A model generated the notes under the pieces. That model had not been told where the DNA came from and did no database searches. It saw nothing but the letters and a program-made list of their open reading frames with translations. From an uncultured Oscillospiraceae bacterium (GTDB lineage Bacteria; Bacillota; Clostridia; Oscillospirales; Oscillospiraceae), in the NCBI GenBank assembly GCA_934569045.1, contig CAKTJX010000010.1, positions 1-64,000 of the forward strand: 64,000 bases of DNA. Reading direction: 5' to 3'. Below, piece by piece: positions 11,850 to 64,000 of this stretch. Made by a program: the position numbers and the translations under genes. Numbering within the stretch: the stretch's first letter is position 1; the number at the start of each line of letters is the position of its first letter.

Positions 11850-12110
11850 AGAAACCGTCCTTGTGCCTAAGCACAAGGACGGACAAAATCCGTGTTACCA
11901 CCTTGTTTCGCCCCCGCCTCACGGTCTGGGGCCTCCGGGAGTACCGACATACTCCTGCGCGGTAACGGGCGCACCCGTCAGAGGCTCAAAGCTTCACCCC
12001 TGCGGCTCCGGGACCATGTTCGGCAGTTCCCTGCGTACCCCTTCTCACCGGCCGGGGCTCTCTGGACGCGCTTTCCTGCTTACTCTTCCCATCTTTGCCT
12101 TGCTCTTGTT
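11850..12110 (-). promoter_or_regulatory. T-box riboswitch leader (methionine type) of metNIQ
   Basis: Read leftward, the leader shows an AGAGAGC distal motif with GGTGAGAAGG. The probable specifier is ATG at 12017-12015 in CCGAACATGGTCC. The antiterminator core AAGGTGGTAACACGG (about 11908-11894) contains the TGGT bulge that pairs with the ACCA end of uncharged tRNA. The terminator stem CCGTCCTTGTGC/GCACAAGGACGG (11882-11855) follows. A methionine specifier agrees with the downstream transporter. Confidence 0.9.
11855..11882 (-). terminator. T-box intrinsic terminator
   Basis: A 12-bp stem with loop TTAG (minus strand) followed by TTTCTGTTTTT. It forms when tRNA is charged and blocks metN transcription. 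Confidence 0.9.
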
Positions 12111-38454: not shown

Positions 38455-38559
38455 TCCCGAAGGGACACCACATCCGCCCGAAGGGCGATTTCATCCGGTC
38501 AAAGACCGGATTTCACCTGTCGCGAGACAGTTTTCACCCAGCCAAAGGCTGGATTTCAT
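38455..38559 (+). repeat. Five-hairpin array, copy A
   Basis: Successive short stems are TCCC/GGGA, CGCCC/GGGCG, CCGGTC/GACCGG, CTGTC/GACAG and CCAGCC/GGCTGG. They are joined by near-constant linkers (ACACCACATC, ATTTCAT, ATTTCAC, TTTTCAC, ATTTCAT). A further GTCCC/GGGAC stem and a GGCACGC/GCGTGCC stem lie just to the left (38391-38440). Confidence 0.85.
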
Positions 38560-38593
38560 CGGGGCGGCTGCCCTTTACAGGGGCTCCTTGTTC

Positions 38594-62613: not shown

Positions 62614-62720
62614 GTCCCGCAGGGACACCACAACCGCCCGCACGGGCGATTTCGTCCAATCTACGATTGGATTTCACCTGTCGCAGGACAGATTTCACCC
62701 GGCCGAGGGCCGGATTTCAT
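62614..62720 (+). repeat. Five-hairpin array, copy C
   Basis: Stems are GTCCC/GGGAC, CGCCC/GGGCG, CCAATC/GATTGG, CTGTC/GACAG and CCGGCC/GGCCGG, with linkers ACACCACAAC, ATTTCGT, ATTTCAC, ATTTCAC and ATTTCAT. Stem three differs from copy A on both arms so that pairing is kept. Confidence 0.87.
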
Positions 62721-62745
62721 TGTCCCAGCCATGCCCATTTCTTTC

Positions 62746-63201
62746 TCACTTCTTCGGTTCCTCCGCGTGGCCGTTCTGATAGGCCCGGCGGATTTCCTCC
62801 GGCATGCTCTCCGGGGTCAGGTTTTTCACCCGGTCCTCATTGCCGTCCTGAATGGCCTGGTCATAGTACCAGCACTTGTAGGTCAGCATATCCAGCACCT
62901 GCCGCATCCGCGCCAGCTCCGCCTCCGCTTCCGCCTGCTGCTGCTCCAGCAGCGCCTTGCGCTGGGCATAGGTGGCGCTTCCCTGGGCGCACCACTGCAT
63001 AAACTGGCGGATGTTCCGAATCTCCATGCCGGTTTTTTTCAGGCACTCAATCATCCGAATGGTCTCCAGCTCCCGGTCCGTGAATTTCCGAATCCCGGCG
63101 GACCGCTCCATGTGGGGAAACAGGCCCTGATTGTCATAGTAGCGCAGGGTGGAAACCGGCAGCCCCGTCTTTTCCGAGACCTGACCAATGGTGTACTCCA
63201 T
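62746..63201 (-). CDS. MerR-family transcriptional regulator
   Basis: A 151-residue MerR regulator. The N-terminal winged helix is YTIGQVSEKTGLPVSTLRYY with DNQGLFP and RKFTDRELETIRMIECL, then the dimerising coiled coil (ALLEQQQAEAEAELARMRQV). The C-terminal KCWYYDQAIQDGNED matches the AdhR/YraB-like group that answers aldehydes or electrophiles. ATG 63201 has GAGGAG eight bases upstream. The MerR-type promoter at 37187 is of the kind these proteins use, but the link is unproven. Confidence 0.87.
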   Translation of the reverse strand: MEYTIGQVSEKTGLPVSTLRYYDNQGLFPHMERSAGIRKFTDRELETIRMIECLKKTGMEIRNIRQFMQWCAQGSATYAQRKALLEQQQAEAEAELARMRQVLDMLTYKCWYYDQAIQDGNEDRVKNLTPESMPEEIRRAYQNGHAEEPKK

Positions 63202-63276
63202 AAGCAATGCTCCTCTTGCCCGGACTCCGGGCTACTTTTTTACCATCATAGCGCATTTGCCGGAAATACGCAAGGC

Positions 63277-63765
63277 CTATTCCAGCTCCGCGCGCAGCTT
63301 TCCCAGGGCCCGCTTCTCAATGCGGGAAATATAGCTGCGGCTGATGCCAAGCCTCTCCGCCACCTGCCGCTGCCGCAGAGGCGGCCCCCCGCCAAGGCCA
63401 TAGCGCAGGCAGATCACCTGCCGCTCCTGCTCCGTCAGGCATCGGGCCACCGCCCTGCGCAGCAAAACCACCGTCTCCCGCCCGCTGACCTCCTCCACCA
63501 GGTCCGAGTCCTCACTGATCACATCCATCAGCGCCAGCGGTGCCCCATCCGCTCCGGTCTCAATAGAATCCGACAGCGAAACATCCTGGGCGCTCTTCCG
63601 CTGGGCACGGAAATACATCAGTATCTCATTCTCCACACACCGCGCCGCATAGGTCGCCAGCCTCGCCCCTTTGGAGGCATCAAAGGTGGTAATTCCCTTG
63701 ATGAGGCCAATGGTTCCAATGGAGATCAGATCCTCTTGGTCGGCGGTCTGGGCGTAATATTTCTT
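63277..63765 (-). pseudogene. sigK: 3' part of sigK (sporulation sigma-K), interrupted at its 5' side
   Basis: The frame encodes the last ~160 residues of sigma-K: region 2 from KKYYAQTADQEDLISIGTIG through LIKGITTFDASKGARLATYA and ARCVENEILMYFRAQRKS, then region 4 (RYGLGGGPPLRQRQVAERLG, ISRSYISRIEKRALGKLRAE). The preceding LRLVAHIV part and the N-terminus are absent. Upstream of KKYYAQ the frame becomes unrelated and stops at 63813. Here a recombinase gene begins on the same strand, so the gene appears split by an integrated element. It would be functional after excision in the mother cell, so this is an interrupted gene rather than a dead one. Confidence 0.85.
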
Positions 63766-64000
63766 AGACTGGTGATGCCCGCGGTGTGCTTGAGGGGTGT
63801 ATAGACGGCCTCATAGGTGCTGCCCAGCTTCAGAAAAATATCGAGATGAATATCATCCTTGGTGCTTTCTCTCTTAACAACAACCCTATCCAGAATCGTT
63901 GCCACCAGCGCCGTATCGATTTCCCCAGTGAAGCGCAACGCCACGTCCAGCGCCCGCCGGATGGCCGGGATATCCAGTTCTTCGGAAGTCCTGTTTTCTT
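63726..64000 (-). CDS. C-terminal end of a site-specific recombinase (skin-like element; 5' end outside window)
   Basis: An open frame entering from the right edge and ending at 63726. It encodes the last ~91 residues of what looks like a large serine recombinase C-terminus (SEELDIPAIRRALDVALRFT, GEIDTALVATILDRVVVKRE, DDIHLDIFLKLGSTYEAVYT). The last ~12 residues (RNITPRPPTKRI) and the stop codon are read out of frame from sigK DNA, so the junction lies at about 63765. The catalytic N-terminal domain is outside the window, so the recombinase class is inferred. Confidence 0.7.
   Translation of the reverse strand, partial: ENRTSEELDIPAIRRALDVALRFTGEIDTALVATILDRVVVKRESTKDDIHLDIFLKLGSTYEAVYTPLKHTAGITSLRNITPRPPTKRI

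Follow-up and report, generated by a model that had tools for sequence, protein, structure and literature searches.

A probable skin-type element junction in sigK of an uncultured Oscillospiraceae bacterium, and related recombinase-borne islands in sporulation genes of its relatives

The stretch of DNA analysed here (the window) covers positions 1 to 64,000 of contig CAKTJX010000010.1 in assembly GCA_934569045.1 of an uncultured Oscillospiraceae bacterium, and close to its right end a sigK gene without its N-terminal part is met by a second frame on the same strand. Programmed excision of an element from sigK is a textbook case known from few cultured species, and the initial annotation had proposed the same arrangement at this locus, i.e. 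a skin-like element within sigK, with a recombinase gene at the junction and the gene rebuilt by excision. The question is whether the right end of the window is indeed the junction of such an element. We consider it very probable that it is, with the element to the right of position 63765, the recombinase as its last gene, the 5′ part of sigK beyond it, and excision rebuilding sigK.

The sigK 3′ part was identified on the minus strand at 63277..63765 by its open frame (63765-63277; 162 codons, from KKYYAQTADQEDL to the stop), by SigK profile models, by its relatives and by purifying selection. The sub-ORF at 63636-63277 (minus strand) matched NF004471 (1.8e-33) and TIGR02846 (1.4e-31) over the C-terminal half of the model only, in agreement with the earlier description of a sigma-K frame lacking its N-terminal part, and relatives are cut at the same codon. 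This codon, the first Lys of the KKYY motif (63765-63763, minus strand), forms the junction between sigK and the element, inside the 63760-63770 interval where the break had been anticipated. The relatives compared were the best 80 matches in the genome collection, where at least 80 exist, and the window's 3′ part was 57-83% identical to those listed. In 71 of these best 80 the frame reads through the position as NLRLV[A/S/V]H[I/V]x-KKYY or a close variant, and in nine it is cut exactly before KK, as in the window. In eight pairs, pN of the 3′ part was 0.12-0.16 and pS 0.50-0.68; it is under purifying selection and evolves as a working gene. This selection and the recurrence of the same cut among the best 80 relatives together argue that the junction is not due to chance.

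The second frame (63998-63726, minus strand) is open at the window edge and encodes 90 aa. On the basis of identity to the 555-aa recombinase of a related locus (L020) and to database proteins, it was assigned to the C-terminal end of a large serine recombinase, of which it provides the last 90 residues and the stop codon (63726..63998, minus strand), with 63765-63726 lying inside sigK. It was 64% identical over 83 aa, the sigK-derived end included, to the C-terminus of the L020 recombinase. Identity to database protein P0142, in which the last 13 residues are the same, reached 97.8% over 90 aa, and the best-matching full-length database proteins were 94-98% identical. Full-length recombinases of the relatives carry Resolvase, Recombinase and zinc-ribbon (Zn_ribbon_recom) domains, which together with the likeness to L020 bears out the suspected serine-recombinase identity. 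As had been described initially, the frame has a recombinase-like C-terminus that ends on sigK bases: it enters sigK for 40 nt and finds its stop there, the last 13 residues, LRNITPRPPTKRI, being sigK DNA read in another frame. The first of these codons begins 2 nt before sigK, and the TGA stop (63728-63726, minus strand) derives from the sigK codons for D-L-I. The element's share of the window is 235 bp only, and for this reason its own sigK 5′ half is not visible.

The probable crossover point was located by comparing the ends of 16 elements, of which those of G001, G004, G007 and G009 come from different contigs. Left and right ends agreed at AA in 16/16, and the dyad of the circle site (attP) was centred between the two A bases in all 16, with 10-18 of 22 pairs (mean 13.6) at this point and 7.9 at the next best offset; the call of AA rests on the dyad, since the ends mostly agree also at the A's of the second Lys codon. 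The agreement at AA and the dyad match the needs of a serine recombinase, which requires a two-base core. By comparison with the 16 elements, the predicted crossover in the window is the AA core dinucleotide at 63764..63765 (minus strand), the first two bases of the first KKYY Lys codon. The recombinase-proximal arm (63766..63790, minus strand; ...CCGCGGGCATCACCAGTCT before the AA core) resembles by eye the right arms of G001 and G002, and its complement the left arm of G001. To the right of position 64000, a same-strand sigK frame ending ...LRLVAHI[MIV] would be expected, with AA and a [GT]AAGGGATAATGCCCGCGG-like arm after it.

Free sigK 5′ halves were present, among the matches listed, in six of the nine genomes cut at the window's codon; no 5′ half was found in the other three, which may be incomplete, and further weak matches in G003 and G005 look like paralogues. 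In the nearest genus, 11 of 16 recombinase-carrying genomes had a free 5′ half that runs into an element-like arm, and four, possibly incomplete as well, gave no match. Both halves lay on one contig in the same orientation in nine elements of 5,087-18,310 bp (10,703, 15,784, 18,310, 17,324, 7,801, 8,415, 11,022, 5,087 and 11,217 bp); a tenth one-contig element, in G893, measured 3,055 bp, and coordinates point to longer ones of ca. 22 kb in G377 and ca. 27 kb in G239. In silico removal of the element restored the sigK frame in 9/9. A single join gave a complete SigK in five of the nine, and after the first join the frame stopped at a third break site in G002 and G189 and at a second in G120 and G099. 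These separate halves and in-frame joins, and the domains of the recombinases, speak for the skin-like element and the rebuilding by excision that had been proposed.

Intact sigK was sought in 10 split-sigK genomes and none was found. Full-length SigK-like matches, considered as a possible second intact sigK, were SigE in 10/10 of the genomes searched; an intact SigK scored 263.8 bits, below the TIGR02846 cut-off of 298.65, which is therefore of no use for telling SigK and SigE apart in these genomes. One genome, G879, had an intact sigK beside a split one and is possibly a mixed MAG. Two further loci differed in layout. Contig G908:C24 (L253) carries two sigK 5′ halves 4.5 kb apart, at 1725 and 6196, each followed by a different element-like arm. 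In L063 (7911-9198) the sigK 3′ half is located 38 bp after a lexA-like gene, while the 5′ half adjoins a recombinase on a different contig; a simple excision is thus hard to see here, and a rearrangement is possible; the neighbours are what we take to be the lexA-like gene and ribosomal protein genes.

A decayed insertion, in which the 5′ half is lost or the element no longer excises in a lineage without SigK-based sporulation, would account for the unseen 5′ half of the window and for the related genomes that lack one (3/9 among the matches listed, and 4/16 in the nearest genus). Such elements do decay, since a truncated sigK-family recombinase adjoins an intact sigK, just upstream of it, in G267 (L128; G267:C38, 1-2194), perhaps a decayed element. 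For the window this explanation is nevertheless improbable, as the 3′ part is intact and under purifying selection, the recombinase end remains nearly identical to full-length database proteins, and more than half of the two-ended elements yield a full SigK from one join.

The overlap between the recombinase and sigK had been considered unusual in itself, a view that did not hold: the recombinase ORF extends past the junction in 9/9 elements with both ends at hand, and a slight overlap of the two frames is described for B. subtilis and a B. cereus-group strain in the accessible part of PMC10745906. Among the matches listed, the recombinase frame passes through the junction in six of nine relatives cut at the same codon, as in the window, and in the other three the recombinase is at the opposite end, directed at the sigK 5′ half. 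The further expectation that excision would alter the recombinase tail agrees with the predicted circular forms, whose tail differs from the integrated one in all nine elements. We regard the overlap as a by-product and not as a switch: with an attachment site at the end of the recombinase gene, the final codons and the stop come from sigK. Since the tail is not conserved, we read the overlap as a consequence of this position of the att site. A regulatory switch, in which the tail swap on excision alters recombinase activity between the integrated and circular states, could draw on the difference seen in every element and on a tail that is longer on the circle in 7/9. It is nonetheless a distinctly improbable alternative, because the circle-form tail ranges from 1 to 103 residues (2 in G120, 1 in G099), sigK supplies 13-19 residues in one orientation and only 1-2 in the opposite one, and the integrated tail in L022 is 44 residues long. 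A misassembly or chimera falsely joining recombinase to sigK in this contig, which the nearness of the junction to the window edge might suggest, is hardly credible, given that numerous independent assemblies share the junction codon, among them contigs of 1.3, 3.2 and 3.7 Mb (G006, G298 and G377), and that the sigK-tail pattern ends 196 of 202 database recombinases picked by similarity.

According to the preferred reading of a skin-type element, the element to the right of 63765 would carry its own large serine recombinase as the last gene beside the junction, and the sigK 5′ part not seen here would border its far side, on the strand of the 3′ part. The recombinase would cross over at the AA of the first KKYY Lys codon, the element would be released as a circle, and sigK would be rejoined in frame. 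With the rearrangement confined to the mother cell, the spore would keep the element. From the relatives we infer the 5′ half in the window's genome, its excision and timing, and the role of a small ORF described below.

Signs of excision were found in database proteins P0044, P0047 and P0057, which end in RLIRDNAQGNFLWRT..., similar to the predicted circle-junction peptide of G002, RLIRDNARGNFRWRT..., and on contig G875:C29 (L250), where the recombinase frame continues across a junction of right arm, AA and left arm. This contig showed no sigK piece, and its ends have no terminal overlap. The left arm by the G875 5′ half is unlike that of the contig, and thus the two elements differ. The attP-type junctions could be tandem arrays rather than circles, and excision and its mother-cell timing in these elements are putative, indicated indirectly by these junctions and by a sigma-E-like promoter.

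In 82 of 400 genomes of the bacterial family the L020 recombinase was matched at 1e-100, and the best 30 loci all abut sigK at the window's codon in either orientation. A script placed 13 of them next to the 3′ part and 16 next to the 5′ part, and L097 joined the latter when its sequence was read by eye. A close relative of the window's recombinase was present in 16 of 136 genomes of the genus of G001. In a 69-row tree, with target labels set by regular expression and with L055 and L094 as the same locus, the sigK recombinases formed one clade of 42 rows (support 100/98), consisting of 39 rows labelled sigK together with L097, L125 and L126; L128 was too short for the tree. On its starred branches, the tree requires the same-strand orientation to have been gained or lost five times or more. 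In the protein database, 3,659 of 7,999 scored proteins were relatives of the L020 recombinase at 1e-150. The 202 fetched were chosen by similarity, and the share with a sigK-type tail is therefore no census; among the remaining tails, P0166 and P0192 are variant-like, three are of circle type and P0033 is different. In-frame stops listed for some recombinases were disregarded and probably lie at the recombinase end, since the open frames are full length. Viral contigs searched with the window's recombinase fragment returned no relative, and the phage collection held no close recombinase (best 40% identity).

In 34 of 37 site-1 loci (tblastn) the recombinase gene is preceded by a small ORF, a candidate recombination directionality factor, whose end lies at or close to the recombinase start or overlaps it; 31 of the 34 matches had E 2e-5 or better. 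The 37 are the 38 loci searched without L128, where sigK is intact, and the four seeds of the search (53-68 aa) were drawn from the same loci. The three loci missed are L001 and L119, both truncated at the start, and L100, which gave no match. Of the controls, the 12 spoIVA loci gave matches in two (E 1.4 and 4.8) and the 18 "other" loci in five, namely L097, L125 and L126 of the sigK clade and two weak ones. Four small ORFs scanned had no Pfam or PHROG match. When scored with the sigma-E consensus, the best sigma-E-like site fell at -232 to -195 in 24 of the 37 loci, a count inflated by the kinship of the loci, and letters shuffled in 40 rounds gave a mean of 3.9 and a maximum of 8. CATA, a GAGGTGAT-like ribosome site and the start codon align at this promoter-like region. 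The layout resembles that of the B. subtilis skin element (SpoIVCA, Skr), for which the accessible part of PMC6957869 gives a 64-aa ORF for a recombination directionality factor (RDF) overlapping the spoIVCA start and a sigma-E promoter more than 200 bp upstream of the Skr ORF.

Cargo proteins of the relatives were picked for scanning, and the genes listed here are consequently no full inventory. A sugar ABC permease, a LacI regulator, GH94 and GH1 were found in G002, a beta-galactosidase and a sugar transporter in G377, and a BMC shell protein, EutN/CcmL, aldehyde and alcohol dehydrogenases and a dehydratase subunit in G239. Other elements contain a prismane protein and a Crp-type regulator (G090), an oligopeptide transporter (G099), a type III restriction enzyme and methylase (G244) or a restriction-type helicase (G298). 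On contig G875:C29 (L250, 1429-12913), the recombinase is followed by cas3, csd1, cas7 and cas1 (Cas3, Csd1, Cas7, Cas1), with a rubrerythrin gene on the other side. No phage structural families were found among the selected cargo proteins scanned against Pfam.

In relatives, sigK is cut at two further sites, both intact in the window: the second between CVEN and E (63625..63633, minus strand; GAGAATGAG) and the third between SYIS and RIEK (63322..63327, minus strand). Among 41 genomes cut at the window's site and with a readable 3′ part, 13 broke at the second site (CIEN before E) and four, plus G099, at the third (SYVS before RIEK), the third site not being reached when reading beyond a second-site break. 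Four of the 71 listed relatives intact at the window's site also broke at the third (L013, L015, L052 and L054). The piece after the later break was located in three cases. G120 (L156, L171) has all three sigK pieces on one contig, separated by elements of 8,415 and 7,740 bp, and two joins gave a complete SigK. In G244 (L153, L173) the third-site element is 7,001 bp long. In G099 (L165, L169) the frame is interrupted at each of the three sites; the piece following the second break was located, the last sigK piece was not. The second break of G099 coincides exactly with the end of a 336-aa serine recombinase (L165:18070-19080), which there adjoins the next sigK piece.

The next relatives of the recombinase (47-49% identical; 391 genomes of the class) end at a 3′ piece of spoIVA, which they abut in L130-L134, L166-L168, L183-L187, L190, L192 and L205-L213; SpoIVA_C was confirmed by Pfam on one family member (L166). 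Those recombinase tails that end in QYI or similar have their TGA stop read from spoIVA DNA. A SpoIVA ATPase piece without the C-terminal part was found in 9/9 genomes checked, in seven of them on the contig and strand of the recombinase. The two spoIVA pieces of G253 seem to enclose an F-type ATP synthase operon (L167, 7411-12898), its genes presumably being those of ATP synthase as named from the sequences.

Among known systems, the skinCd element of Clostridioides difficile, as described in the accessible part of PMC5025042, is like the window in that a large serine recombinase (CD1231) lies immediately upstream of the sigK 3′ part. It is inserted in sigK, excision rebuilds the gene, and a small directionality factor (RDF, CD1234) takes part, although the gene beside CD1231 is CD1232 and not that of the RDF. 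According to the same source, C. difficile sigma-K has no pro-sequence, whereas the relatives studied here have a hydrophobic N-terminal stretch resembling one. The B. subtilis skin element is 48 kb long, has phage-like content and uses an AATGA repeat (PMC10745906, part seen); AATGA occurs here at the second break site, not at that of the window, a putative equivalence to B. subtilis based on the motif. Also comparable are gin (PMC5595907) and an island of a B. cereus-group strain that is inserted in sigK (island IV; PMC10745906), both described in the parts seen as having non-phage cargo and being excised during sporulation; island IV also shows the slight frame overlap, yet its recombinase is beside the sigK 5′ part, unlike in the window, and the target of gin is gerE. 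In these descriptions, as far as accessible, there is one element per gene. NCBIfam matches at ≤1e-20 for the recombinases of two relatives were limited to CcrB/CcrC (best 9.7e-43, CcrC) and XisF of the fdxN element (1e-24 to 1e-27), all far below the curated cut-offs. An SCC cassette with a Ccr recombinase was rejected, the two recombinases scoring 120.9-146.5 bits against the CcrB/CcrC cut-off of 900.

What marks the family is a recombinase clade dedicated to sigK, together with non-phage cargo, elements in both orientations and a sigK gene in several pieces. Earlier work had described, each singly, frame overlap, cargo of non-phage type and insertion at more than one position (PMC5595907, PMC6957869, PMC10745906, parts seen). 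The literature searched, which covers few subscription journals and was seen in part, described neither a sigK gene cut at two or more places nor an element in spoIVA, and no Oscillospiraceae skin element. As far as these searches show, the recombinase clade dedicated to sigK in gut Oscillospiraceae, the sugar, microcompartment or restriction cargo, and the cutting of sigK at up to three places per genome are new.

More broadly, we lean towards viewing sigK of gut Oscillospiraceae as a docking gene, in which three conserved sites receive independent recombinase-borne islands for sugar use, microcompartments, oligopeptide uptake, restriction and possibly CRISPR-Cas, with the window's element at the first site and a sister clade doing the same at spoIVA. 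With three sites open to islands, sigK would be left in two to four pieces and need several DNA excisions in one mother cell, and a gene in three or four pieces permits a clear test of whether several excisions take place per mother cell, and in which order. The data suggest that sigK islands are recurrent or common in this group of gut bacteria and are excised to rebuild the gene at sporulation. Since the islands examined hold useful-looking genes and not phage remains, genes used only in the mother cell may be safe harbours, where an island would cost little if gone when the gene is needed. The islands may also account for sigK being missed by genome annotation in these bacteria.

Around the window's sigK, a MerR-type regulator (62746-63207) is located directly 3′ of the gene on the same strand. 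Matches to the Gut-1 RNA (RF01706) were found at 62644-62722, ca. 550 bp from sigK, and at 38483-38561, and a T-box leader at 11872-12104.
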